Source of the DNA: a virus
Length of the DNA: 40,416 bases
Virus record (IMG/VR): IMGVR_UViG_3300044796_000168
Span: 1-40,416 of that record
Reading direction: 5' to 3' (one strand)
The notes under the pieces are model-generated. The model had not been told where the DNA came from and searched no databases. It saw nothing but the letters and a program-made list of their open reading frames with translations. A program made the translations under genes and the position numbers. This document shows, piece after piece, positions 2,854 through 39,892 of the stretch (the first letter of the stretch is position 1; each line of letters starts with the position of its first letter).

Positions 2854-3314
2854 CGTTTCGCGGGCTGTTGCGCGCTTGTCTTCAACGAGCCGAGCGCCCA
2901 CACCACAAGCGTTTCGACCACCGCCGCAACCGCCGCTCCGCCCACCGCCGTCACAATCGGAATGAACGTCGCCTTCCACGCACTTTCCTGAGCCTGAGCC
3001 GTGGCGGCGTCGCGTTGGTCGTTCGCCGTCTGCTCACGCGCCGTGCACGCGGCCAGCTTCTTCTCTTCGCGAGCTCGCTGCTCAATCGTGCGCGTGGCGA
3101 GCGCCTCAAGCCCCGCACGCGTGATCACTTGGTCGCCGTTCGGGCGCTGCTGGTCGAGCGGGCGCAAAAGTCCCACCGGGTAGACGGGTGCACTTGCCGG
3201 CTGCGACGCGGGCATGGAAGCGGGCTGCGAGGCCGGCGCGGGCGCCGCGACGATATGCACAGGCTGTGTGCAAGCTGTGGATAACGCCAAGAGAATCGCG
3301 AGCGTGCGCGGCAT
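2850..3314 (-). CDS. candidate unimolecular spanin (lipoprotein with C-terminal TM)
   Basis: A 154-residue protein from the ATG preceded by GGAAG. It has a signal sequence with a lipobox-like LSTAC (Cys15), a Pro/Ala/Ser-rich spacer (about 24-46), a charged helical stretch (about 66-112), one transmembrane segment (about 117-143) and a basic tail. An N-terminal lipid anchor plus a C-terminal membrane helix is the u-spanin layout known from phage T1 gp11, which fuses outer and inner membranes at lysis. It is last in the minus-strand lysis-like operon, which fits. The -3 Ser is not ideal for a lipobox. A longer frame upstream (to 3449) lacks support. Confidence 0.6.
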   Translation of the reverse strand: MPRTLAILLALSTACTQPVHIVAAPAPASQPASMPASQPASAPVYPVGLLRPLDQQRPNGDQVITRAGLEALATRTIEQRAREEKKLAACTAREQTANDQRDAATAQAQESAWKATFIPIVTAVGGAAVAAVVETLVVWALGSLKTSAQQPAKR

Positions 3315-8923: not shown

Positions 8924-9068
8924 AATGAAAGCCGCGTGGGAAATCATCGGCGGCGCGATCGTGACGTACATTTCCGCAAATGCACAGGTGAACGTGACGG
9001 CGCCTGAAGCCACGACCATCGCGGGCGGAAACGCTGCAACCATCTCGGCGCCAAATGCCATCACCTAA
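8835..9068 (+). CDS. small hypothetical protein upstream of terminase
   Basis: A 77-residue protein with an AAAGG-like site before its ATG. The N-terminal half is helical (GDAVVAALKASNPAITGAIE); the C-terminal half is a Thr/Ala/Gly-rich beta-like tail (VNVTAPEATTIAGGNAATIS). I recall proteins of this style in structural regions of other phages, but not their function. It overlaps the terminase start by 14 bases. Confidence 0.6.
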   Translation: MAMSGSAMGDAVVAALKASNPAITGAIETEMKAAWEIIGGAIVTYISANAQVNVTAPEATTIAGGNAATISAPNAIT

Positions 9069-10638
9069 AAAGCCGCGCCCGCCCAAAGCACCGCCGCCGC
9101 CTAAACCGCCGGTTAAAGAAGAAGAAGACGATTTAGGCAAGCCGCTTGAAATGGAAAACCCGCAGGGCGGCGGCAGCATTCGCGCCAAGGCGTGGACCAT
9201 TCGGGATATCGACGCGGCGTTGGTGGCTGCTGGATGGCCGCCGGTGTCGCCTCGTTGGTGGGAAGTACTCGACAAAGTTTACAGCTCAAAGCAACGCAAT
9301 ATCGTTGGCCGATGGGGGCGGCGCGGTGGCAAGTCATCCACCATCGCCGGGCGCGTGGCGCTCTTTGAAATTCTTTCCGGGCGTCACGAAGTTCCGCCGG
9401 GCGATACGGGATACTTTGCGATCCTCTCGGCCGACAAAGACCAAGCCAAAGAGCGCTTGGACACGTGCAGCAAAGCGCTCACGGCGATCGGCATCGTTCA
9501 TCGCAAGACCGCCACTGAAATCACCTTCAACGAAAAATCGCCGTACGCGAATCTCGGGATCAAGGCGTTCGCCGCGACCACTTCGGCGGTGGTGTCGTTC
9601 ACGTGCATCGGTTTCCTTGCGGACGAAATGGCGCACTGGCGCGACAAAGACAGCGGCGCGAATCCGGCGAGCGCGATTCTGAAATTGCTGCGCCCGACCA
9701 TGGCCACGATGAAGAACGCCAAAGGCTGGTACGTCTCGGCGCCGTTCTCCACGATCGATCTTCACCACAAGATGTTCACCAAGGGTGAAACCAAGTCGCA
9801 GCTCGTTTTCTTCGGCACCACGCCCGAAATGAATCCGACGCTCACCGACGAAATGATCGTCGAGCTCGAAGACGACGAACAGACGCGCAATAATGCCTAC
9901 TACTGCATCCCGATTTCCGCGGATGAAACCAAATTTTTCCCGGCTGCGTTCATAGACCTGGCCGTTTCCACTCCGCCGCCGCTGCAAGGATCGCCGTCGC
10001 GTACTGCCGCGGGCGCCGACTTCGCTTTTCGGCGAAACTCGTCTGCGATTGCGGTGCTCGACAAATTCGAGGCGGCAGTACCACGCGTGCGGCGCAAAGA
10101 GACTGTGCTGGCTTCGGCGCTGCGGCTCGAAGCGGATGAAGAGCGCATCCCTGGCGAAATGCCGCTTGTGCCTTCCACGACGATTTCGGAGCTGTGCGGG
10201 ATCGCTCACATGCTCGGCGCTGACTCTGTCGCGTGCGATTTGCATTACATCGAAACGGTGCGCGAAGAGACAGACGAACTGGAAATGCCGTTGCTCGAAT
10301 TCCCCACCGACACCAAAGCGATTTCAAACGCCTACGTGCGCTTCCGCGTGCTGCTCACGGAACGCCGCGTGGACTTGTCGCAGGCATCGCCACGCCTCAT
10401 AAAGCAGCTCAAGGAAACGACGCAGAAGCCAACGCAGAGCGGCTTGTCCATCATCAACAAGAGCGATGGCACGGCGCACGGTGACCGCGTGTCGGCGTTG
10501 ATTTGTGCGGTGTGGGCGCAAGAACAAGACTTGATCGATGAGCACGCGGCGATGGGCCAACGGAGGTTTCCGGGCCGCGGTGACACGCCGAACGATGAAG
10601 AATACGACGATCTACCCCCGGCGCGTTTCTTATCGTAA
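9055..10638 (+). CDS. terminase large subunit
   Basis: A 527-residue packaging motor. After a Pro/Lys-rich N-terminus it shows a Walker A-like GRWGRRGGKSS (85-95), a Walker B CIGFLADEMAHW with Asp190 and Glu191, and a coupling motif WYVSAPFST. The C-terminal RNase H-like nuclease has acidic residues at Asp322 (AGADFAF), Asp395 (ACDLHY) and Asp477 (HGDRVSAL). ATP hydrolysis drives DNA into the prohead and the nuclease cuts the concatemer. Length and gene order match Mu gp28-type terminases. No small terminase is recognisable beside it. Confidence 0.93.
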   Translation: MPSPKKPRPPKAPPPPKPPVKEEEDDLGKPLEMENPQGGGSIRAKAWTIRDIDAALVAAGWPPVSPRWWEVLDKVYSSKQRNIVGRWGRRGGKSSTIAGRVALFEILSGRHEVPPGDTGYFAILSADKDQAKERLDTCSKALTAIGIVHRKTATEITFNEKSPYANLGIKAFAATTSAVVSFTCIGFLADEMAHWRDKDSGANPASAILKLLRPTMATMKNAKGWYVSAPFSTIDLHHKMFTKGETKSQLVFFGTTPEMNPTLTDEMIVELEDDEQTRNNAYYCIPISADETKFFPAAFIDLAVSTPPPLQGSPSRTAAGADFAFRRNSSAIAVLDKFEAAVPRVRRKETVLASALRLEADEERIPGEMPLVPSTTISELCGIAHMLGADSVACDLHYIETVREETDELEMPLLEFPTDTKAISNAYVRFRVLLTERRVDLSQASPRLIKQLKETTQKPTQSGLSIINKSDGTAHGDRVSALICAVWAQEQDLIDEHAAMGQRRFPGRGDTPNDEEYDDLPPARFLS

Positions 10639-10676: not shown

Positions 10677-12050
10677 ATGGCACAATCATTTTGGCAGTCA
10701 CTCAACCCGTTCAAGAGCACTGCCAAACTGTCAGCGTCACAGCCGTTCGATCAGCGTTCAAAAGATGAAGACGACGATCAAACATCGCGCATCGAAATGC
10801 ATTCGTCTTCGCGCGAGCTCTGGTATCGCCCCACCGTAAGTGGCTGGACTCCCGAACGTGTTGAAAAAGCCGCAGCCATGGCGGACTCGGGTCCGTTGCT
10901 GGAGCTCGCGGACCTTTGCGAGACGATGTTTCGCGACGCTCGCATTTCGGGCGTGCTCGCGACTCGCGCACACGCGTTGCTCGGGATGCCGATTTCATTT
11001 CGCGACGGCAACGACGAAGCGCGCGAAATGCTTGAAGGCGACGCGGATGAAAAGACCGGCGAGTGGTGGCACATGTGCGATGAGAGCGAGCTCGCCAAGC
11101 TGCTCTTTTGGGGAATCACTTCAGGCGTAGGCCTCGCGCAACGCATTGAGCTTCCGCGCCTGATCGGAAAGCCGCACCGCTATCGCATCGAAACGTGGTC
11201 GCCTCGTTGGCTGACCTACTACCATTACGGCAACGGCGGCTCGCATTGGAAAGTGCAGACGCAAAACGGCATGGAGTCCGTGATCCCCGGTGATGGTGAT
11301 TGGATTCTCTTTCAGCCGTACGGCGCTCGCCGGCCGTGGGCCGAAGGTCTTTGGCGTGCGCTCGCGTTTCCGTGGTTGCTCAAGCATTTCAGCATGGAAG
11401 ACCGCGCCAATTTTTCGCAGGTGCTCGGCTCACCGGTCATGCTCGGCACGACTTCGCACACGGGCACGGAGCGCCAGCGCCGCACGTACATGGGCCAACT
11501 TGCTTCGCTCGGGAAAAACGCAAAGCTCGTGCTGCCGCAAGGTTGGGATCTGAAACTCGTGGAAGCGGCGAGCGCAGGAAAAAGCGGCGACGTTTTCGAT
11601 CAGCAGATAAAGTTCTCGAATGAAGAGATCACGATCGCGATTGCAGGTCAGACAGTGACGACCGAAGGCACGCCGGGATTCTCTGACGGAAATCCGCAAA
11701 AGCAAATCGCGCAAAACTTGATCCGCTTCGATGGGGAGCGGCTTTCTACGTGCTTGCAGCAGCAACACGTCTCACCGTGGGTTAAGATGAATTTCGGTGT
11801 CACGGCTTCGGCGCCGTGGCCGAAGTGGGTGACCGAAGAGCCCGAAGACATCACAGAAAAAGCGGACGGTCTCGGCAAGCTCGGTGATGCGATCACCAAG
11901 TTGGACGGCGCGCTAAAAGTCCACGGTATGAAAGTGGACGCGAAAAAGATCATGGACGATTTCGGGATCGATGTGCTCGCGCAAGATCCCAACGCGGAGC
12001 CCGTGCCGGCGACGGCAGACAAAGCGCCGACAACGGGGGGAGCATCATGA
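10677..12050 (+). CDS. portal protein (Mu gp29 / DUF935 type)
   Basis: A 457-residue protein matching Mu-type portals: helical N-terminal region (LLELADLCETMFRDARISGV), a middle with RYRIETWSPRWLTYYHYGNG and a wing-like DWILFQPYGARRPWAEGLWR, then FSMEDRANFSQVLGSPVMLG and GQTVTTEGTPGFSDG toward the C-terminus. It would form the 12-mer ring through which DNA enters and to which the tail connects. It lies right after the terminase and overlaps the protease by ATGA. A GAGGTG ribosome site lies somewhat far upstream. Confidence 0.9.
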   Translation: MAQSFWQSLNPFKSTAKLSASQPFDQRSKDEDDDQTSRIEMHSSSRELWYRPTVSGWTPERVEKAAAMADSGPLLELADLCETMFRDARISGVLATRAHALLGMPISFRDGNDEAREMLEGDADEKTGEWWHMCDESELAKLLFWGITSGVGLAQRIELPRLIGKPHRYRIETWSPRWLTYYHYGNGGSHWKVQTQNGMESVIPGDGDWILFQPYGARRPWAEGLWRALAFPWLLKHFSMEDRANFSQVLGSPVMLGTTSHTGTERQRRTYMGQLASLGKNAKLVLPQGWDLKLVEAASAGKSGDVFDQQIKFSNEEITIAIAGQTVTTEGTPGFSDGNPQKQIAQNLIRFDGERLSTCLQQQHVSPWVKMNFGVTASAPWPKWVTEEPEDITEKADGLGKLGDAITKLDGALKVHGMKVDAKKIMDDFGIDVLAQDPNAEPVPATADKAPTTGGAS

Positions 12051-13288
12051 AGATGACTTGGGAGAAACGTTTCTACGTCGCACTGCGCCGCGGCTCTTTG
12101 GCCAGTTCGGTCGCGAGCATCGCGCTTTCGATGTCGAACGAACCGCCAAAAGAGATCCTGTTTTTCAAGGCGGGATGGAACGAAACGCAAAAGGGAAAAT
12201 TTCTTTTCGACGATCAAGCGGCACGCGATGTGATGGCGGCTTACGAGCGCCACGGCGTGGATTGCATGATTGATCTCGAACACCTTTCGCTCGACCCCGA
12301 GGCAGAAAATTACGATCCCGATGCGCGCGCTTGGTACAAATTGAGCGTGCGCGATGGTGCGTTGTGGGCCACCGAAGTCGAGTGGACACCCGATGGTGAA
12401 GACCGATTGCGAAACAAGAAACAGCGCTATATCTCGCCGTTTTTTGAATTCGACCCGAAAACGAAACGCATCAAAGCAGTCTTCAATGCGGGGCTCGTGG
12501 CGGTGCCGGCGACGAATGACACGCCGGCATTGATTGCAGCTTCCTTGCGTGCGAGACAAAAACTTGGCAGTCTACCGAACGAGGCTATTGACATGAACAA
12601 AATTCTTTCCGCCCTTGGTCTTAAGGATGATGCAACCGAAGAAGATGCTTTGGCCGCAATCAAAGCTTTGACTGATGGCGGAGGCGACAGCGACGAAGTG
12701 ATGAAGAAGCTGCGCAAGGCGCTCAAGCTCGCCGACGATGCGAGCGCCGATGAATGCATGTCCGCCTTGAGCGAAAAGCTCGGCGACGATGAAGAGCCGT
12801 CAGACGATGACGACAAGAAAGAAAAAGAAGAGCTCAAGGCTCTCGCGAAGCTCAATCCGAAACTCTACGGCGAGTTGATGGCGTTGCGCGCCGGCAAGTC
12901 CGAAGTGGACAAGCGGATCGGCAAGCTCGAAAAGCTCACCGAGCAACAGCAGGTGGATGCGTTCATCCAAGCGAACATCGCGAAGATTCCTTTGTCCATG
13001 GAGAAATGGGCCAAAGGCCAATCGATCGAAGTCCTCTCGGGATTCGTTTCGACATCGCAATTCACCCGTGAGCCAGCGAAGGAGCCGAAGCACGTGCAGA
13101 GCGGAAACAATGGCGGCGGCGCCACCGAAGACCCGGACAAGCTCACCGAAAAAGATTTGACCCCCGAAGATTTGAAGACCGCCAAGCTAGCCGGCATTCC
13201 GCCGTCTGCTGTCTTGGCTGAACGCAAACGCGAGTTGCAGCGCAAGCGCGACCACGTTGCGCTCTCTGTCTCGCGCATCGACAGCTAA
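12047..13288 (+). CDS. prohead protease with C-terminal scaffold (Mu gpI type)
   Basis: A 413-residue protein. Residues about 33-170 fit the Mu I protease family (EILFFKAGWNETQKGKFLFD, DVMAAYERHGVDCMIDLEHL, KQRYISPFFEFD). From residue 183 follows an acidic, coiled-coil-rich scaffold-like region (SALGLKDDATEEDALAAIKA to the C-terminus). In Mu the scaffold is also made alone from an internal start in the same frame; an equivalent start exists here at 12593. The protein would shape the prohead and then process it before packaging. Confidence 0.87.
   Translation: MKMTWEKRFYVALRRGSLASSVASIALSMSNEPPKEILFFKAGWNETQKGKFLFDDQAARDVMAAYERHGVDCMIDLEHLSLDPEAENYDPDARAWYKLSVRDGALWATEVEWTPDGEDRLRNKKQRYISPFFEFDPKTKRIKAVFNAGLVAVPATNDTPALIAASLRARQKLGSLPNEAIDMNKILSALGLKDDATEEDALAAIKALTDGGGDSDEVMKKLRKALKLADDASADECMSALSEKLGDDEEPSDDDDKKEKEELKALAKLNPKLYGELMALRAGKSEVDKRIGKLEKLTEQQQVDAFIQANIAKIPLSMEKWAKGQSIEVLSGFVSTSQFTREPAKEPKHVQSGNNGGGATEDPDKLTEKDLTPEDLKTAKLAGIPPSAVLAERKRELQRKRDHVALSVSRIDS
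12581..12595 (+). promoter_or_regulatory. internal ribosome site and start for separate scaffold
   Basis: GAGG at 12581-12584 stands 8 bases before an in-frame ATG (12593, residue 183 of the protease). The product would be a 231-residue scaffold lacking the protease domain, as with Mu gpZ. The junction lies exactly between the recognisable protease part and the acidic scaffold part. Confidence 0.55.
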
Positions 13289-13313
13289 GCAGTACTCATA
13301 GAAAATGCAGTTG

Positions 13314-13334
13314 TGGCGTCGCTCCCGCCATTTT
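13314..13334 (+). promoter_or_regulatory. hairpin with TCGCTCC loop upstream of decoration gene
   Basis: A 5-bp stem (TGGCG/CGCCA) closes the 7-base loop TCGCTCC and is followed by TTTT. It sits in the 81-base gap before the gene at 13370. The same loop on a different 5-bp stem recurs before the major capsid gene, so this is more than a random hairpin. A terminator, attenuator, processing site or protein-binding site are all possible. Confidence 0.5.
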
Positions 13335-13369
13335 GATTTGAACACGAAATCGAAAGCGGAGAGCAAAAA

Positions 13370-14155
13370 ATGTCTGACGCAACGTCCCCCGGCGTAGTTA
13401 CCTCTGTCGAAAAACTTTCCTGCTATGCAATGAGCTTCGAGTGGGGCGTGGCGGCGCTGGCGGTCTTGCTGCCGGGTATTGCGCTCGGCATCAACTCCAG
13501 CGGTCACTTGGTGCCCGCAGATGATGCCACCGCGATTGCTTCGGTTGGTCGCTGCGCGGTTGCGGTGACTGGAACGACCGAAGGCACGCTGACTGCGCGC
13601 TTCGACCAAGGTATCTTCCGATGGGCAGCGGGAACCAATCCGCCCACCAACGCGAACCGCGGCCAGCTCTGTTACTGGCAGGACGATCAAACCGTCACCA
13701 TGACACCGACCGGTGTGGCGCCTGCCGGCACCGTCGAAGGTGTGGATTCGCAAGGCGTGTATGTCTTGACCGCGCTCGGCCTCAACGGCTCGGAAGGTGC
13801 GGCTTCGGCTGAAACCGTCCTCAACCTCTACTTGGCCGATTTGGTTGGCGCGGATGCGAAGTCGTATTACATCGTCGCGCCCTTCGCTGCGACGATCACC
13901 AAGCTCGAAACCATCTTGAACGCTGCGCTCACCACCGGCAACGCCGTGGCCACCGCATCGATCAACGGCACGCCGATCACCGGCGGTGCGGTCACGATGG
14001 TGCAATCGGCTTCGGCTGCCGGTCAAGAGAACACTGCATCGCCATCGGCTGCCAACGTGGTCGCCGCCGGTGACAAGATTTCCGTCACGATCAGCGGCAC
14101 GCAAGCCAGCACGTCGGCAAGCGCGAATCTTTCGATTTACCTCGCGCCGCTGTAA
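13370..14155 (+). CDS. probable capsid decoration protein
   Basis: A 261-residue protein between scaffold and major capsid protein, the usual place of a head decoration protein. Residues about 1-130 resemble small DUF2190-like head proteins (GRCAVAVTGTTEGTLTARFD, GIFRWAAGTNPPTNANRGQL, LCYWQDDQTVTMTP). The second half (about 145-261) is a Thr/Ala/Ser-rich beta-domain (YYIVAPFAATITKLETIL onward) of fibre-like character. It may thus be a decoration protein with a displayed extra domain. An AGAGCAAAAAATG site and the hairpin at 13314 precede it. Confidence 0.65.
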   Translation: MSDATSPGVVTSVEKLSCYAMSFEWGVAALAVLLPGIALGINSSGHLVPADDATAIASVGRCAVAVTGTTEGTLTARFDQGIFRWAAGTNPPTNANRGQLCYWQDDQTVTMTPTGVAPAGTVEGVDSQGVYVLTALGLNGSEGAASAETVLNLYLADLVGADAKSYYIVAPFAATITKLETILNAALTTGNAVATASINGTPITGGAVTMVQSASAAGQENTASPSAANVVAAGDKISVTISGTQASTSASANLSIYLAPL

Positions 14156-14171
14156 TTTCGGTTCGTAACTC

Positions 14172-14188
14172 CGCGGTCGCTCCCCGCG
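14172..14188 (+). promoter_or_regulatory. hairpin with TCGCTCC loop upstream of capsid gene
   Basis: A 5-bp stem (CGCGG/CCGCG) closes the same 7-base loop TCGCTCC seen at 13319-13325. TAACAATTTTTT and a strong AAAGGAG ribosome site follow. The stems differ between the two copies while pairing and loop are kept, which points to selection on RNA structure. Confidence 0.5.
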
Positions 14189-14224
14189 TAACAATTTTTT
14201 GGTCTTCAAAGGAGCTGCTGCGAC

Positions 14225-15172
14225 ATGGCAACGATTATCACGCAACCGGTACTCAATTCGCTGCGCACGACGTTCACAGCGGCCTTTTGGAACGTGTTCA
14301 ACAACACGCCCAAATGGTTCGACAAAATCTCGACAGAGATCCCGTCCGCCAGCATCAGCAATACGTACGGTTGGATCATGGATCAATTCGCGATGCGCGA
14401 GTGGATCGGTCCCCGCGTTGCGCAGAACATGCAAGAGCACGCACAAGTCATCGTGAACAAGCTGTGGGAAGAAACGGCCAAGCTCAGACGCACGGACGTG
14501 GAAGACGACAACCTTGGCGTCTTCTCCAAGTTCGTCATGCCGAGCATGGCGCGCGCAGCCGCGAAGCACCCCGACACTCGCTTGTCGCAAGTCATTCTCG
14601 GCAACGGTACTTGCTTTGACGGCAAGGCGTTCTTCGCGAACAACCACCCCACGTTCAACAACACGGGGACCGGCAACACCACCTATTCCAACCTCATCAC
14701 CGGCACTGGCTTGGATGGCGCGGGCGCGAACAGCGTGCGTGCGCAGATGGCCGGCTTCACGGGTGAGAACAACTTGCCGCTTGGTGTGCGTGGCAACTTG
14801 CTGATCGTTCCGCCGGCACTGGAGAACGCGGCCAACGTCATCGCGAACAGCGAAACGTATGCCATCCCGACTGTGACGAGCGGTCTTGCTCCGACCTCGA
14901 ACAGCGCCACCGTGTACAACCCGATGAAGGGTACGTTCACGGTGCTCGTGGTGCCCGAGCTCGCCGGCAACGACACGACTTGGTACATGGCCGACACGAC
15001 CAAGCCGGTCATGCCGTTCGTCTACCAGCCCCGCATCCCGCTCGAATTGACCGCGCGCTTCAACCCCGAAGATCCTTCGGTGTTCGAGCTCGACCAATAT
15101 GTTTGGGGTGGCCGCGCTCGTTACGAGCTCGGTTTCTCGCTGCCCTACCTTTGCGTCAAAGTCACCGCCTAA
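14225..15172 (+). CDS. major capsid protein (Mu gpT type)
   Basis: A 315-residue protein with the look of Mu gpT: MATIITQPVLNSLRTTFTAA at the start, FDKISTEIPSASISNTYGWI, MREWIGPRVAQNM, then GVFSKFVMPSMARAAAKHPD, GKAFFANNHPTFN and GNLLIVPPALENAANVIANS. The C-terminal part (LTARFNPEDPSVFELDQYVW) is also typical. It forms the icosahedral shell with the HK97 fold. It has a strong ribosome site, as expected for the most abundant protein. Confidence 0.92.
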   Translation: MATIITQPVLNSLRTTFTAAFWNVFNNTPKWFDKISTEIPSASISNTYGWIMDQFAMREWIGPRVAQNMQEHAQVIVNKLWEETAKLRRTDVEDDNLGVFSKFVMPSMARAAAKHPDTRLSQVILGNGTCFDGKAFFANNHPTFNNTGTGNTTYSNLITGTGLDGAGANSVRAQMAGFTGENNLPLGVRGNLLIVPPALENAANVIANSETYAIPTVTSGLAPTSNSATVYNPMKGTFTVLVVPELAGNDTTWYMADTTKPVMPFVYQPRIPLELTARFNPEDPSVFELDQYVWGGRARYELGFSLPYLCVKVTA

Positions 15173-19173: not shown

Positions 19174-19500
19174 ATGGATGACACACAGATCGCGAAGCTG
19201 AAGGACCAACACGGTGCGGACTTGGCGCTTGTCGAGGCCAACGACGGAACGGAATTGGTTTTCAAAAAACCGGCACGGGCGGAGTATAACCGTTGGTTCA
19301 ACAAGCGCGAAGAAGACCCGAGCGGTGCGGCACTTCAACTCGCCGCCTCTTGCTTGGTGCATCCCGCTTACGACCAAATGATCTTGGCGCTCGACAAGCA
19401 GCCGGCTCTTTTGATGGGCGGCGGTGGTATCAGCGCCGCACTGATCTTGCTCGCCGGTGTGCAAGATGGCGGGGAGATCCGCAAACCAAAAAAGCTTTAG
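19174..19500 (+). CDS. tail assembly chaperone, short form (gpG-type)
   Basis: A 108-residue protein between tube and tape measure genes. LALVEANDGTELVFKKPARA and EYNRWFNKREEDPSGAALQL resemble Mu gp41-type chaperones. The C-terminus is rich in Gly and hydrophobic residues. It ends four codons beyond the start of a slippery A-run. Such proteins coat the tape measure protein during tail assembly and are absent from the virion. Confidence 0.75.
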   Translation: MDDTQIAKLKDQHGADLALVEANDGTELVFKKPARAEYNRWFNKREEDPSGAALQLAASCLVHPAYDQMILALDKQPALLMGGGGISAALILLAGVQDGGEIRKPKKL

Positions 19501-19661
19501 CGCGCGCCCGCGTTGACTCCACCTATGCGGCCGACTGCCTCTTGGCGTTGTTCGGTCACGGTGGGGAACACGATGACGCGCAGATCGGTGCTCTCCTGAT
19601 TGCTGAGTTTTTGAGGACAGCTAGAGATTGGGACTACAATACCTTCAAACGAGAGTGGTGA
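19174..19661 (+). CDS. tail assembly chaperone, -1 frameshift product (gpGT-type)
   Basis: Ribosomes slipping back one base at A AAA AAG (19488-19494) would add 55 residues in the -1 frame (ALARARVDSTYAADCLLALF onward, ending NTFKREW), giving 162 residues. A frame with no independent start follows immediately and ends 3 bases before the tape measure start. This is the conserved lambda G/GT arrangement, also present in Mu-like phages. The extension would bind the tape measure protein. The efficiency of slippage is unknown. Confidence 0.8.
19488..19494 (+). promoter_or_regulatory. programmed -1 frameshift slippery site
   Basis: The heptamer A AAA AAG is in the correct phase (CCA AAA AAG in the zero frame), identical to one of the most slippery E. 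coli sites (dnaX type). The zero-frame stop TAG is one codon downstream. A GC-rich stretch (19499-19515) follows and could form a stimulating structure. Confidence 0.85.
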
Positions 19662-19664
19662 TGC

Positions 19665-21284: not shown

Positions 21285-21934
21285 TGCCGACAGCTCTCGA
21301 AATTCAGCAGAACAACGCAGCGAGAAACTTTGGCAATGCGCCGAAGGCCACCAACTGGATCAAGCCCGATGCGCCAGCGAAAGCCGGCGATTATTGGGTG
21401 GACACCGTTCTCGGCGACGATGTTATTCGCCCGTGGGATCAACTCGTGCTCGGCGGAACGACGTTCCCCGGCCTTTGGAAGATCGCGCCGTCCACTTCGA
21501 TTTCGTTCGAGCCGAACAAGATTTTGAAAAACCCCGGATCGACCACCCAGGGCGTGGGGCCGAAGTTCAAGATCGTTCTCACGCCGAAGGGATACAACCC
21601 AGCGAGCATCATCGCGAAGGGCGAGATTTGGACGGGCGCCGACTGGCAATCGTTCAAGAAAGCGATCTCCACAATCGCGCCGAAGAAAACCAACGACTCG
21701 GCGCCGCGCGCGTTTTCGATTTCGCACCCCGGTTGCGCGGTGCTCGGAATCGACCAAGTGATCATCACCAACGTGGGGTTGCCTGATATCGTCAACCAAA
21801 CGCTGCTGATTCAGATCACGATGATGCAATATTTTCCGCAGGGGCCGATCTACACGACCTACGGCAACTTTGGATCAGCGAAGCTGCCGCCAGCCGCGCC
21901 GCCTAACGCAAACAACAACGTGAGCACCAAGTGA
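21284..21934 (+). CDS. baseplate-region protein, unknown
   Basis: A 216-residue protein after the tape measure, where Mu has the DNA-circularisation/hub genes N and P. It is beta-rich and Pro-rich: DAPAKAGDYWVDTVLGDDVI, FPGLWKIAPSTSISFEPNKI, KFKIVLTPKGYNPASIIAKG. It ends in a Pro/Asn-rich tail. It is likely a baseplate or tail-hub component (by context only). An AAGGGGG site precedes the ATG; a GTG one codon earlier is equally possible. Confidence 0.6.
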   Translation: MPTALEIQQNNAARNFGNAPKATNWIKPDAPAKAGDYWVDTVLGDDVIRPWDQLVLGGTTFPGLWKIAPSTSISFEPNKILKNPGSTTQGVGPKFKIVLTPKGYNPASIIAKGEIWTGADWQSFKKAISTIAPKKTNDSAPRAFSISHPGCAVLGIDQVIITNVGLPDIVNQTLLIQITMMQYFPQGPIYTTYGNFGSAKLPPAAPPNANNNVSTK

Positions 21935-23052
21935 GTTACGAGATCATCGAAGCGCAGATCGAAGAGTTTCAGCAAGCCACGTGGGTGGCCGATCTCGTTT
22001 CGGCCATGTCGTTTGGCGGCTCTGGAACCTTCACGCTCAACGACGGCTCGACATGGACCGGCGCCACGGTGTCCGAGCGATTCGACGTGTACCGATACCA
22101 CACGCGTGTTGTCGGCGGTGCGGGCAAGCTTGGCGCGATCGTCCAAGACAAATTTTATTCGGGCAACGTTTCGCTGCAAGTGGCCGTTGGCGACATCTGC
22201 AACGAGGGCGGAGAATCGATCGGCCAAGTTGCTCCGGGAATTATCCTCACCACCTATCAGCGCCAGCAAGGCACTGTGGCGGCGGCGCTCAATCAGCTCG
22301 CCGCCGAATTCGGCATGATTTGGTGGATCGATCGCAACGGCCTTGTGAACATGAACACGGCGCGCCCGACATCCGGCGACGCGAACGGCACGCGCATTTC
22401 GTCTGACGTGGACGCATCGATCGTGCTCGTTGATCCTGTGAGCGTCGTGCTAGGGGCTTCGTACGATTCCAGCGATTCCACCGCTGCGATGAAGGCGATT
22501 CAGCACGTACGATGGCGGCAAACGGACAAGCAATTTTCAGCCGAGATTTACCCGGTGCCGTTCTTGTATCGTCCGCCCACGCTCACGGTTTACGAGCGCA
22601 TGTACAACGCACGCGTGGACAAGGATAACGGTGACGGCACGATCGATGTGATCGTTGATCAGCGCTTCGGTGTGACGGCGGTACCGTTCTTCTGCGGCGT
22701 TCCTCATTCAAAAACGAAGCTGGACGGCGGCGACCAAGTAACCTTCGGTTTCTTCGGCGGCAACCCGAACGCGCCGTTCGCAACCACCACCGCGCAGGAC
22801 ACAACGGCCACGAAGCAGGTTGCGCGAAACGGCGATAGCACACAGTCGGGCGAGTCCGACGATTCGACCTTTTGGAATTGGATGCAGGCTTTTATGACGA
22901 TCGTGCAGGGCGCGCCGATTCCCGAGCCCGGCAACGGCTCGCCGTCTGCTTTCCAAACCGCATTACAGGCGGCGTTTGCCGCTTCACCTTTCCCGAGCTC
23001 GCTCACCGGAAAGATCACGAGCGGAAGCGATCGCTTGAAAGTGGGTGACTGA
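21931..23052 (+). CDS. baseplate hub protein with OB-like spike module
   Basis: A 373-residue protein starting with GTG in a GTGA overlap. The first 210 residues resemble gpD/P-type hub proteins (SFGGSGTFTLNDGSTWTGAT, TVAAALNQLAAEFGMIWWID). Residues about 215-290 look like the OB domain of gpV/gp45 spikes: MYNARVDKDNGDGTIDVIVD, then VPFFCGVPHSKTKLDGGDQV and TFGFFGGNPNAPF. No separate spike gene is present, so hub and spike functions may be joined in one chain. The C-terminal 80 residues are polar and uncharacterised. Confidence 0.65.
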   Translation: MSYEIIEAQIEEFQQATWVADLVSAMSFGGSGTFTLNDGSTWTGATVSERFDVYRYHTRVVGGAGKLGAIVQDKFYSGNVSLQVAVGDICNEGGESIGQVAPGIILTTYQRQQGTVAAALNQLAAEFGMIWWIDRNGLVNMNTARPTSGDANGTRISSDVDASIVLVDPVSVVLGASYDSSDSTAAMKAIQHVRWRQTDKQFSAEIYPVPFLYRPPTLTVYERMYNARVDKDNGDGTIDVIVDQRFGVTAVPFFCGVPHSKTKLDGGDQVTFGFFGGNPNAPFATTTAQDTTATKQVARNGDSTQSGESDDSTFWNWMQAFMTIVQGAPIPEPGNGSPSAFQTALQAAFAASPFPSSLTGKITSGSDRLKVGD

Positions 23053-33857: not shown

Positions 33858-34068
33858 ACGCGAAGTGATCTGCGATGTCTGCCGAAACGAGCCGGCCACA
33901 TGTGTCGAGCAACACAGCGACGCCGGCTCGGATTACTCAGAGGATGGGGGAGACACGATTGAATACGGATCGACGATCGTCGCGTGCTCGACGTGCTGCG
34001 ACCACAAAGAACCGCACCAGTGCTTGCCGATCGTGCGCTACGAGCGCGGGAAAGAATACGATGAATGA
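33850..34068 (+). CDS. small Cys-rich, probably zinc-binding protein
   Basis: A 72-residue protein from a GTG start 8 bases before the previous stop. CDVCRNEPATC near the N-terminus and CSTCCDHKEPHQC near the C-terminus give seven Cys and nearby His, a treble-clef or zinc-ribbon-like layout. The linker is strongly acidic (SDYSEDGGDTIE). Small phage zinc proteins often bind host factors, but nothing here shows which. Confidence 0.6.
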   Translation: MSEREVICDVCRNEPATCVEQHSDAGSDYSEDGGDTIEYGSTIVACSTCCDHKEPHQCLPIVRYERGKEYDE

Positions 34069-34879: not shown

Positions 34880-34963
34880 CGCATCACAGCAAAAGCGACA
34901 CGCGTGTGACTTTCTGCCACTCGGAAACTTGATCGCAAGCTCAGCCTCTGACAGAGATACTTG

Positions 34964-35003
34964 CGGCCGGTTCATGTGGAGCGACACATGACCCGGCCGT
35001 TTT
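34964..35003 (+). terminator. strong intrinsic terminator
   Basis: A 15-bp stem with one T/C mismatch (34964-34978 with 34985-34999) and a 6-base loop GAGCGA is followed by TTTTCTCTC. It is by far the strongest hairpin terminator I see. It stands between the small early genes and the HNH/helicase/primase genes, only 22 bases before the next start. No promoter fits in between, so downstream genes may depend on read-through or antitermination. Confidence 0.8.
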
Positions 35004-35025
35004 CTCTCGCTCGGAGAATCTTCAA

Positions 35026-35822: not shown

Positions 35823-37474
35823 CGGTGCAGCTCAGGGGGTATCAAACCGACGCCATCAACGCATTCATACAATCGCCATGGCAGCGATCGCTGGTGGTTC
35901 TCAGTACCGGCATGGGAAAGACGATCACCGGGCTCGCGCTCGCAAAGCAAATGGGCGGGCGATGCCTTTGGTTGGCCCATCGCGAAGAGCTGATCACGCA
36001 GCCCGGAAAAGCATTGCAGCTCGTGTGGCCGGGCGTGACTTACGGCCAGGTGAAGGCAGAGCGCAACGAGTACATGCGCCAAGTGGTGTTCGCGTCGATT
36101 CAATCGGCGCAACAGCAGCGCAGGATCGATCAGCTCGTACGCGAGCGTTTCGATCTCGTTGTCGTGGATGAAGCGCACCACGCTTTATCCCCCGGTTACA
36201 AGCAACTGTTGGAAGCGCTCGGATGTTGGAAAGAGGGTGGGCCAAAGTTGCTTGGCCTCACAGCGACGCCAGAGCGAAGCGACAACGGCGCACTCGAAGA
36301 TGTCTTTCAGGGCATCGTCTTTCAGGTCGGCATCACGTCGGCGATCGAAGGCGGATATCTTGTGCCGCCGCGAGTGGTCGAGCGCCCGATCGCCGTTGAC
36401 CTCGACAGCGTGACGGTGAGCCGTGGCGACTACGGACAAAAGCAACTCGACATCGCGTTGATGCAAGCGGGTATCGTCGGCGAGATCACCGCCGCATACG
36501 AAGAGCATTGCGCGGCCAAGAAGTCGCTGATCTTCGTGGTGTCAGTCGCTCAGGCGGAAGCTGTGGCCGATGCGCTCAGAGCTCGCGGGCACGCCGTCGC
36601 CGCAGTCTCGGGCGAGACACCGAAAGAGCAGCGCCGCTCAATCTTGCGCAAGCTCGCAACCGGCGAGCTCCGTTGTGTGGTCAACTGCATGGTCTTAACC
36701 GAAGGTTTCGACGAACCTTCGATCGATGCGTTGATCCTCGCACGCCCCACGCAGTCCAAGCCGCTCATGATTCAAATGGTTGGCCGTGGCCTGCGCCTCT
36801 ATCCGAACAAAATTGACTGCCTCGTGGTGGACCTCGTGGCCGCCACCAAACGCAACTCGCTGATCCAAGCGGCGGTTCTCTTTGGGCTCAAAGCAGACCC
36901 GAAAGAAAAGCCGAAGCCCACGCAGCTCGACCCGATCGGCGATGCGGAAGAGTATTGGCGCCAACGCTTTCTCTCGCAAATCAAAGGCGTGAAGGGCGCG
37001 CCGCGCTCGAAGCTGCGTTGGCTGCCGACAAACGACGGTCTTGGTTGGCTTTTAGCTGCGGGCGAGTACGGTACGATCCGAATGTTGCCGCAGGGGGAAG
37101 AGTGGAGTGTTGACGTTGTCGGCGCTCGCGAGGGCGAACGCTTCCAGCGTTTGAGCGACGCGCCCGTGAACATGGAGACCGCGCAGGCGATTGCCGAGGA
37201 CATGGTGCGCCGCGTGAAAGCGGTAGAGCTCGCGAGCGGACAGGCCAAGTGGAGAGACCAACCCGCGAGCCCGGCGCAAATAGCCGCATTGAAGCGTGCG
37301 GGAATCGACGCCACCAACATGACCAAAGGCACGGCCGCCGACATCATGACCCAGCGCAGCGCCGAGCCCGCAACACCCAAGCAAATCGCATCACTTCGCC
37401 GCATGGGCGCGAAGGTCCACGAAGGCATCACCAAACGGGAGGCGTCGCGACTGTTCGCGATGCAGAGGGGCTAG
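35819..37474 (+). CDS. superfamily 2 DEAD-type helicase
   Basis: A 551-residue helicase. Q-motif-like LRGYQTDAI at the N-terminus, motif I STGMGKT (29-35), DEAH box VVDEAHH (about 116-121), motif III GLTATPER (about 147-153), motif V VLTEGFDEPSIDALILARPT and motif VI QMVGRGLR. The C-terminus contains two similar short units (SPAQIAALKRAGI and TPKQIASLRRMGA) that probably bind DNA or a partner. It lies directly upstream of the primase gene (3-base gap), so it is likely a replication or recombination helicase. Confidence 0.92.
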   Translation: MTVQLRGYQTDAINAFIQSPWQRSLVVLSTGMGKTITGLALAKQMGGRCLWLAHREELITQPGKALQLVWPGVTYGQVKAERNEYMRQVVFASIQSAQQQRRIDQLVRERFDLVVVDEAHHALSPGYKQLLEALGCWKEGGPKLLGLTATPERSDNGALEDVFQGIVFQVGITSAIEGGYLVPPRVVERPIAVDLDSVTVSRGDYGQKQLDIALMQAGIVGEITAAYEEHCAAKKSLIFVVSVAQAEAVADALRARGHAVAAVSGETPKEQRRSILRKLATGELRCVVNCMVLTEGFDEPSIDALILARPTQSKPLMIQMVGRGLRLYPNKIDCLVVDLVAATKRNSLIQAAVLFGLKADPKEKPKPTQLDPIGDAEEYWRQRFLSQIKGVKGAPRSKLRWLPTNDGLGWLLAAGEYGTIRMLPQGEEWSVDVVGAREGERFQRLSDAPVNMETAQAIAEDMVRRVKAVELASGQAKWRDQPASPAQIAALKRAGIDATNMTKGTAADIMTQRSAEPATPKQIASLRRMGAKVHEGITKREASRLFAMQRG

Positions 37475-37477
37475 CTT

Positions 37478-39892
37478 GTGACGATTTTCGAGTCTGCGTT
37501 GTGGTGCGCGAGCAAGGGGTGGCGAATCCTTCCAGTGTGGGGCGTGCGCGAAGGCGTTTGCCTTTGTCCGATGGGCGTCAACTGCGACAAGAAGCCCGGC
37601 AAGCACCCTATCGAAAGCGCATGGCAGAAGCGCGCAACGACCGACAAGAAGCAAATCCGCAAGTGGTGGGCCGCTCACCCTGACGCAAATTTCGGCGTCG
37701 CCACGGGACACGACAGCGGCATTTTCGTGGTGGATATCGACGGCGAAAAAGGGTTTAGCTCGCTCGCCGAGCTCGAAGAGAAAAACGGCAAGCTCCCCGA
37801 GACTTTCACGGTGCAGACCGGAAGCGGTGGCTTGCACTTCTATTTTTCGTACCCGGACTTCGAGATCCGCAACAAGCAAGGATGGCAACCCGGAATCGAC
37901 ATTCGCGGTGAGGGCGGCTTCGTTGTTGGCCCGTTGAGCACACACGTGAGCGGCCATAGTTACGAGGCACGCAACGACGTTGAGACAATGAGCTTCCCGC
38001 TCGCCGGAAATCTCGCCGTGAAAGAGCAACCGGCCGCACCCGTCGCGCCGCTCGTTCACTCCGACCAAACGAAAAAGGCGAGCTTGTATCTCGCCAAGAT
38101 GCCGCCGGCCATCTCGGGCAGCGGTGGACACGATGCGACGTACAAGGCCGCCGTGATTCTCGTGAAAGGTTTTTCGCTGAGCGAAGACCAAGCGCTCGCG
38201 ATGCTCATGGCTGAGTATAACCCGCGGTGTCAGCCTGCATGGACAGAGAAAGAGCTACGTCACAAAATAAAAGACGCGATGCGCTCAAGCACGTTGCCGG
38301 ACGGCTTCATTGCCAACCGACCACCGAAGCATTTGCGCGCCGTGCCGAGTGACCCATTCGCGGCGTTCTCGGACTTCAAGCCGAGCTCGCCGCCGCCGCT
38401 CGAAGGACCGCCGCCGCCGACTGACGAAGACGCACCGCCAGAAGAAGCAGGCCGCATCACCGCCGACGAATTCGAGCGGCTGATTGACGACGATATCGGC
38501 GCGCCGCTGAAGCCTGAAATCTTTCGCCGGCTCATGGGCGTGCGTGATGACAAGGCGCTGTGGCTGCGCATCGAAGAAATTTTGCGCGTGAAGCGGGTGA
38601 AGCGTGCGTTCACCGAAGAAGTGAAAGCGTACGACCGCAAGAACAAACGCGCCGCCAACGCGAGCGCCGATTGGGAGCAGCTGCTCATTTACAAGACCAC
38701 GAAGAGCGGCGACGAAATTCTGGAGAACAACTTGGCCAACGTTGCGGCAATTCTCCAGCATGCGCCCGCGTGGCGAGGCGTGATCTCATACGACCGATTC
38801 AAAAAGAAAATCGTGAAGCTGAAAGACCCGCCGCACGACTCGCATAGCGCCGATTGGTGCGACGAAGATGCGTTTCACGCCAAGATTTGGCTGGAGCGAA
38901 ACTACGCGATCAGGCCGAACACAAAAACGGTGTTTGAGGCAATCCAAGTCGTTGCCGCAAACTGCGACCATGACCCGCTGAAAGATTATTTTCTTGGCCT
39001 CACCGATGATCACGACCACAGCATAATCGACACGTGGTTGACCGACTTTTTCGGCGTTGAGGACACGCCATACTCGCGCGCCGTTGGCAAAAAGTGGTTG
39101 GTCGGTGCCGTGAAACGCGCATTTGAGCCGGGCTGCAAAATCGACACCGTCCTGATTCTCGAAGGTGAGCAGGGCATGAAAAAAAGCCGCTTTCTTTCGC
39201 AGCTGTGCCCGAACAAATCATGGTTCACCGATGGTTTGTCCGAATTCGGCTCCAAGGCTCAAGCCGAAGAGGTGGAAGGCAAGTGGATCATTGAGCTCGG
39301 CGAGCTGAAAGGCTTCCGCAAAAGCGACACCGATTCGATCAAAGCGTTCATCACTCGCGACACTGAAAACTACCGCCCAGCTTATGCCAGATATTCAATA
39401 GAATCACCGCGGCGATGCGTTTTCGTCGGCACCGTGAACACCGAAGGCGAGTACTTCAACGACCCCACAGGCAATCGGCGATTCTGGCCGGTGAAGTGTA
39501 CGAAGCAAGCTCCCGAGCTCACCCCAAAGATGCGCGATCAGATTTGGGCCGAAGCCTACACCATCTACAAGTCAGGCGAAGAGCCATGGTTGTCCACGCC
39601 CGAGCTCGTGGCCGAAGCGGTGAAGCACCAAGAAGAACGCGTTGTGCACGACGTGTGGCACGACAAGATCGAAGAGTTCTTGGAAGGCAAAAGCACCGTC
39701 CACATGGACGATGTGCTCAACCATCTTGGCGTTGACGTGGCGAAACGCAGCACCAACGAGCAGCGCCGAGTCGGCTACGTGATGAAGATCCTAAACTGGA
39801 CGCGCGATCGCATGTACCTTCCAAACGGCCGGCGCGTGAGGTGTTTCCGAAAGCCGCCTGACACACAACTGGAATTTGCGGCCGCGCATTAG
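37478..39892 (+). CDS. primase-polymerase / VapE-type helicase fusion
   Basis: An 804-residue replication protein from a GTG start. The N-terminal prim-pol domain shows GVREGVCLCPMGVNC ... GKHP, the catalytic VVDID (Asp86, Asp88), GSGGLHFYF (His120) and DIRGEGGFVVGPLSTH. A primase C-terminal helical domain (about 208-270) and a Pro-rich linker follow. The C-terminal half is the virulence-associated E type SF3-like ATPase: Walker A GEQGMKKS (563-570), then WIIELGELKGFRKSDTDSIK and RRCVFVGTVN. One chain can thus prime and unwind at the phage origin. The stop overlaps the convergent gene at TTAG. Confidence 0.92.
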   Translation: MTIFESALWCASKGWRILPVWGVREGVCLCPMGVNCDKKPGKHPIESAWQKRATTDKKQIRKWWAAHPDANFGVATGHDSGIFVVDIDGEKGFSSLAELEEKNGKLPETFTVQTGSGGLHFYFSYPDFEIRNKQGWQPGIDIRGEGGFVVGPLSTHVSGHSYEARNDVETMSFPLAGNLAVKEQPAAPVAPLVHSDQTKKASLYLAKMPPAISGSGGHDATYKAAVILVKGFSLSEDQALAMLMAEYNPRCQPAWTEKELRHKIKDAMRSSTLPDGFIANRPPKHLRAVPSDPFAAFSDFKPSSPPPLEGPPPPTDEDAPPEEAGRITADEFERLIDDDIGAPLKPEIFRRLMGVRDDKALWLRIEEILRVKRVKRAFTEEVKAYDRKNKRAANASADWEQLLIYKTTKSGDEILENNLANVAAILQHAPAWRGVISYDRFKKKIVKLKDPPHDSHSADWCDEDAFHAKIWLERNYAIRPNTKTVFEAIQVVAANCDHDPLKDYFLGLTDDHDHSIIDTWLTDFFGVEDTPYSRAVGKKWLVGAVKRAFEPGCKIDTVLILEGEQGMKKSRFLSQLCPNKSWFTDGLSEFGSKAQAEEVEGKWIIELGELKGFRKSDTDSIKAFITRDTENYRPAYARYSIESPRRCVFVGTVNTEGEYFNDPTGNRRFWPVKCTKQAPELTPKMRDQIWAEAYTIYKSGEEPWLSTPELVAEAVKHQEERVVHDVWHDKIEEFLEGKSTVHMDDVLNHLGVDVAKRSTNEQRRVGYVMKILNWTRDRMYLPNGRRVRCFRKPPDTQLEFAAAH

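Follow-up and report, generated by a model that had tools for sequence, protein, structure and literature searches.

The head operon and its two gaps

The window, by which we mean the whole 40,416-base virus record, carries a set of Mu-like head genes that are recognized from the list of open reading frames together with matches to PHROG profiles (Table 1). It is Mu-like in part only, since a helicase (ResIII/Helicase_C) is found with a Prim-Pol + VapE-like protein at its right end (35912-39892). Two of the head genes are preceded by noncoding gaps, one of 81 nt (gap 1) before the virion structural gene that starts at 13370 and one of 69 nt (gap 2) before the capsid gene. An earlier note, made from the sequence alone, had called these the longest gaps in the structural operon, which is a fair description: after the capsid gene no gaps of this size are found except for a nominal 164-nt gap (19501-19664) before the tape-measure gene, and that one is mostly overlain by an ORF at 19293-19661. 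This ORF overlaps another (19174-19500) just upstream of the tape-measure gene (19665), and the overlap at 19174-19661 is arranged as is usual for a tail-assembly chaperone produced via a programmed frameshift.

The products of the two genes had been named as decoration and capsid proteins. The capsid assignment is secure (phrog_371, major head protein, E 1e-67), while the label of decoration protein is weaker, as the annotation of phrog_1731 is only 'virion structural protein'. The start of the 13370 gene is backed by an alignment from residue 1 with its counterpart in a relative, L041, described below. The N-terminal part of its product matches phrog_1731, and the protein has an extra C-terminal half, of which residues 163-258 match Pelagibacter phage HTVC106P (38%). 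A structure model of this protein, with a mean pLDDT of 47, was too poor and was not used.

Table 1. Genes, hairpins and Shine-Dalgarno (SD) sequences of the head operon in the window and in L041
Feature	Position	Strand	Remarks
Terminase gene	9055-10638		
Portal gene	10677-12050		phrog_113
Head maturation protease gene	12047-13288	+	phrog_328; upstream neighbour of the 13370 gene
Hairpin A1	13313-13331	+	GTGGCG - TCGCTCC - CGCCAT, then TTTGATTTG; competes with B1
Hairpin B1	13321-13364	+	Predicted fold; 17 bp, loop GAACACG; SD-masking
SD of the 13370 gene	13358-13361	+	GGAG, 8 nt upstream of ATG
Virion structural (putative decoration) gene	13370-14155	+	phrog_1731; 261 aa
Hairpin A2	14172-14188	+	CGCGG - TCGCTCC - CCGCG; competes with B2
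Pairing B2	14172-14222	+	Predicted fold; 11 bp, 27-nt interior; masks capsid SD
SD of the capsid gene	14210-14214	+	AGGAG, 10 nt upstream of ATG
gpT-like major capsid gene	14225-15172	+	phrog_371; 315 aa
L041 small hairpin	2936-2953		CACGCG-ACGCCA-CGCGTG, then directly ATTTTT; before structural gene
L041 15-bp hairpin	2950-2986		Holds SD of structural gene; z -3.35

Two small hairpins with one loop

Each gap contains a small hairpin that presents the loop TCGCTCC on a stem of its own, and both hairpins lie exactly where the earlier note had reported them (13314-13330 and 14172-14188), the first, TGGCG-TCGCTCC-CGCCA, being one G-U pair longer in the form that we call A1. The two have in common the 9-mer GTCGCTCCC (13318-13326 and 14176-14184), of which there is no other exact copy in the window, and TCGCTCC itself is not enriched there, with 6 sites against 9.3 expected. 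A third site of the loop, on the minus strand at 34978, was rejected as a third copy: it belongs to a long palindrome that is terminator-like on the plus strand, where the RNA loop is GAGCGA. This palindrome, at 34961-35004, is very strong and imperfect (CGGCCGG...CCGGCCG) and is followed by TTTTCTC. After it comes a hairpin, TTCTC-TCGCTCG-GAGAA, at 35002-35018, and a strong palindrome of like make-up (GAGCCGG...CCGGCTC, with a GTGT/ACAC core) is found at 33889-33932, about 1.07 kb away.

Such features might have no dedicated function at all: a GC-rich spacer can fold by chance, and the 9-mer could have arisen twice by coincidence or be what is left of a small local duplication. We consider this explanation somewhat unlikely. 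Each hairpin alone is indeed unremarkable, as roughly one in three such gaps should contain a hairpin with a stem of 5 bp or more and a loop of 4-9 nt (35% of the shuffles for gap 1 and 32% for gap 2). The sharing of the loop argues the other way, for an identical loop of at least 6 nt was present in both gaps in 1 of 40,000 shuffle pairs, and an identical-loop pair (6-9 nt) among intergenic gaps has a P of 0.0007 with the 13 gaps of at most 310 nt and of 0.0067 with 18 gaps. When gene borders are ignored, however, 0.23 identical-loop pairs are expected per shuffled window, which is not rare, and the window does hold a second pair, at 22753 and 22924, with 5-bp stems and the 7-nt loop CGGCAAC, both members of which lie within the called gene 21931-23052. 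The strength of the observation thus comes from both copies of TCGCTCC sitting in gaps. Rfam 15 gave 0 covariance-model matches at the gathering score across the window, and at a relaxed threshold the matches near the gaps were at chance level, with none at the hairpins.

Left to fold freely, neither gap forms its small hairpin (A1 and A2 have pair probabilities of at most 0.01 in silico), and with the gap and start codon folded together, forcing A1 or A2 costs 8.4 or 6.4 kcal/mol, respectively.

The loop as an anti-Shine-Dalgarno sequence

The loop common to A1 and A2 contains an anti-Shine-Dalgarno sequence, GCUCC, and in the predicted stable fold of each gap this GCUCC is paired with the GGAG of the next gene's SD; all folds were computed in silico at 37 C, and the SD assumed is of the E. 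coli type, which may not be that of the host. In gap 1 the stable fold is B1, in which 13321-13328 and 13331-13339 pair with 13347-13359 and 13361-13364, one A being bulged. Its 5' arm, GCUCCCGC, is made of most of the A1 loop and the A1 3' stem, its 3' arm, GCGGAGAGC, carries the SD, and its predicted energy is -20.0 kcal/mol (z -5.6, with boundaries picked on the fold). In gap 2, B2 pairs 14172-14183 with 14211-14222, placing GCUCC against the SD sequence GGAGC, at -19.2 kcal/mol and a z of -2.3.

This identity would by itself explain most of the loop's conservation. Because SDs are constrained to GGAG-like sequences, elements that mask them tend to share CUCC, so that an identical loop would be less surprising and the stems would be free to differ. 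The earlier note took a changed but still paired stem under a conserved loop to be the pattern of selection on RNA structure; such selection is plausible, but the reason given for it falls away, since A1 and A2 are minor folds and the loop is the anti-SD.

Masking was evaluated as the cost of opening GGAG compared with shuffled upstream sequence, the SD and start being held fixed. Both this test and the hairpin boundaries were picked after the folds had been seen, which makes the following P values optimistic. For the 13370 gene, opening costs 8.3-9.5 kcal/mol across runs; one run gave 9.26 kcal/mol against a shuffle mean of 2.8 (1 of 500 shuffles), a second gave a P of 0.01, and over three flank choices P was 0.000-0.017. 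Masking of the capsid SD was not significant in any of three tests against shuffles (P 0.19, 0.16 and 0.09-0.21), as chance folding would lead one to expect. Other starts in the window have opening costs of 5.8 up to 7.95 kcal/mol, and with costs comparable to these, masking alone is not unique to the 13370 and capsid genes. In the window, the cost of opening the SD falls from 9.2 to 2.6 and from 5.5 to 2.5 kcal/mol once the small hairpin is enforced.

A diverged relative with the same layout

L041 (IMGVR_UViG_3300046516_000889) is the sole syntenic relative found by searches that may have missed close relatives, and its proteins are 64% (portal), 45% (protease), 36% (structural protein) and 43% (capsid) identical to those of the window. 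The alignment of the gaps among related phages that the earlier note had called for fails here: the gaps of L041, at 71 and 51 nt, do not align with those of the window, and consensus folding of the gaps of these two genomes gave no credible shared alignment. The note had also held that relatives without a hairpin or loop at the same positions would speak against its view. Each L041 gap does hold a hairpin, yet TCGCTCC is in neither, and more distant relatives mostly have neither feature; the absence of the loop from L041 again favours chance.

Before the structural gene of L041, the 3' arm of the small hairpin overlaps the 15-bp hairpin that masks the SD. Opening this SD costs 6.6 kcal/mol against about 3 in shuffles (0 of 300 shuffles; P 0.02-0.03, depending on the choice of flanks), and enforcing the small hairpin lowers the cost to 4.8 kcal/mol only. 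Before the capsid gene of L041 there is a 5-bp hairpin, and the SD is open (1.7-3.0 kcal/mol) and unmasked. A layout in which a small GC hairpin overlaps a longer SD-masking hairpin is therefore present before the structural gene in both genomes, in sequences that cannot be aligned, and masking of this first gene's SD is significant in two diverged genomes, which argues against chance. The sequences, the energies and the mutual exclusion of small hairpin and masking fold are, like this significance, results obtained in silico.

Among distant gpT relatives the gaps are mostly 10-50 nt, mostly with neither hairpin nor loop, which is a point in favour of chance, and no excess of SD masking was seen at their capsid (gpT) starts (97 loci, median P 0.55) or at their structural-gene starts (43 loci, median P 0.65). 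Close relatives were sought with the terminase, portal and protease and with a DNA pattern encoding the portal peptide KHFSxEDRANF, and these scans yielded L041 alone or nothing. A scan of genome contigs gave 4 loci, all distant; 379 genomes from the phylum of the Myxococcales MAG that holds locus L017 gave distant matches only, the best being 42% for gpT and 34% for the portal; and a further gpT scan gave three loci (L135, L136 and L140) with short gaps and with portals that, where covered, are less than 30% identical. No directly relevant paper on capsid genes whose SD is masked came up in a search of the literature.

A proposed mechanism and its alternatives

These results are best read as control of the 13370 gene by SD masking, in a layout kept in two diverged phages, with the capsid gene as a possible second case. 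That both gaps control translation initiation, with an anti-SD in each masking the SD of the next gene, is a proposal that we put forward tentatively; as a role, SD masking is fairly well supported for the 13370 gene and weakly for the capsid gene. In this mechanism, the segment GUCGCUCCC of each gap, which carries the anti-Shine-Dalgarno GCUCC, would in the stable fold pair with the GGAG of the next gene and hide its SD, by means of a 17-bp hairpin in gap 1 and of 11 bp in gap 2. The small hairpin would be an alternative fold that holds the same anti-SD in its loop and leaves the SD far easier to open, and the pair of folds could serve as an off/on switch or as a plain brake that sets expression.

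The predicted folds suggest that masking may occur in the cell and would then lower translation. The small hairpin may be a functional on-state, or perhaps a co-transcriptional intermediate or merely an available fold, and the capsid gene may be under the same control as the 13370 gene. Against masking stand the presence of the arrangement in two genomes only, the unmasked capsid SD of L041 and the absence of a masking trend in distant relatives. Where one hairpin fills half of the gap, moreover, it is unsurprising that a small one overlaps it, and a gene that is expected to be highly expressed could be strongly masked only with an extra opening step.

It is rather unlikely that A1 and its L041 counterpart are instead weak intrinsic terminators, or sites of RNA 3' ends or processing, that set relative transcript levels in the head operon. 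Partial termination had been among the roles suggested for the two hairpins, and by pattern it suits A1 and not A2. A1 runs into a U-rich sequence and scores as terminator-like by a loose pattern, and the L041 hairpin is directly followed by ATTTTT; but A1 is short and its U-tract interrupted, and A2, whose U-run begins several nucleotides past the stem, fails the pattern. Terminator-like patterns are also common by chance (3 expected from 2.5-kb shuffles, 8 found in the region), and partial termination ahead of the capsid gene would cut the most-needed product.

A phage protein might otherwise bind the TCGCTCC loop of A1 and A2; a head protein, for instance, could in this way monitor its own abundance and coordinate both genes. 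We judge this improbable. The recurrence of one loop on two different stems in neighbouring gaps would fit such a site, and there is a precedent in phage Mu, where Com binds a short hairpin beside the mom translation-inhibition structure (PMC6483171), but the loop is missing from L041, its anti-SD identity already accounts for its sequence, A1 and A2 are minor folds when no ligand is present, and neither a candidate RNA-binding protein nor other specific support was found. Less probable still is a matched RNA-switch pair, in which the shared anti-SD loop, carried by a different stem in each gap, would hide the SDs of both neighbouring head genes, and binding of this loop by a phage protein would open or close the two, fixing the ratio of the two head proteins.

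SD strength alone is often invoked to explain how tailed phages set the proportions of the head proteins encoded in one operon. If SD masking is the true explanation, a start-masking fold kept despite sequence divergence would be a simple form of RNA-level control; if the gaps are mere spacers that fold, they would illustrate that a loop may look 'conserved' because it is an anti-SD and not a protein site.

Comparison with known systems

SD-sequestering translational control is an already known kind of mechanism. In SD-sequestering leaders, such as those of ribosomal-protein autoregulation and translational riboswitches, the RNA can adopt two mutually exclusive folds and an anti-SD sequesters the SD in one of them, as is also predicted here; the elements described here differ in being intergenic within a phage late operon and in matching no Rfam 15 family. 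Intrinsic terminators are resembled by A1 and the L041 hairpin, both GC-rich and followed by U-rich sequence, and differ from A1 in its short stem and interrupted U-tract and from A2 in its want of an adjacent U-tract. The nearest described arrangement appears to be com/mom of phage Mu, in which binding of Com, a known zinc-finger activator, opens the translation-inhibition structure (TIS), whose stem contains the start codon of the masked gene, mom (PMC6483171). There, and by prediction here, a short hairpin adjoins or overlaps a second structure that masks the start signals of a phage gene, and a change in one is thought to open the other, whereas the masked element here is the SD of head genes and not the start codon of mom. 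Neither an activator nor a homologous sequence was found, the genes covered by the analysis being head genes. The likeness would be one of possible working rather than of membership.
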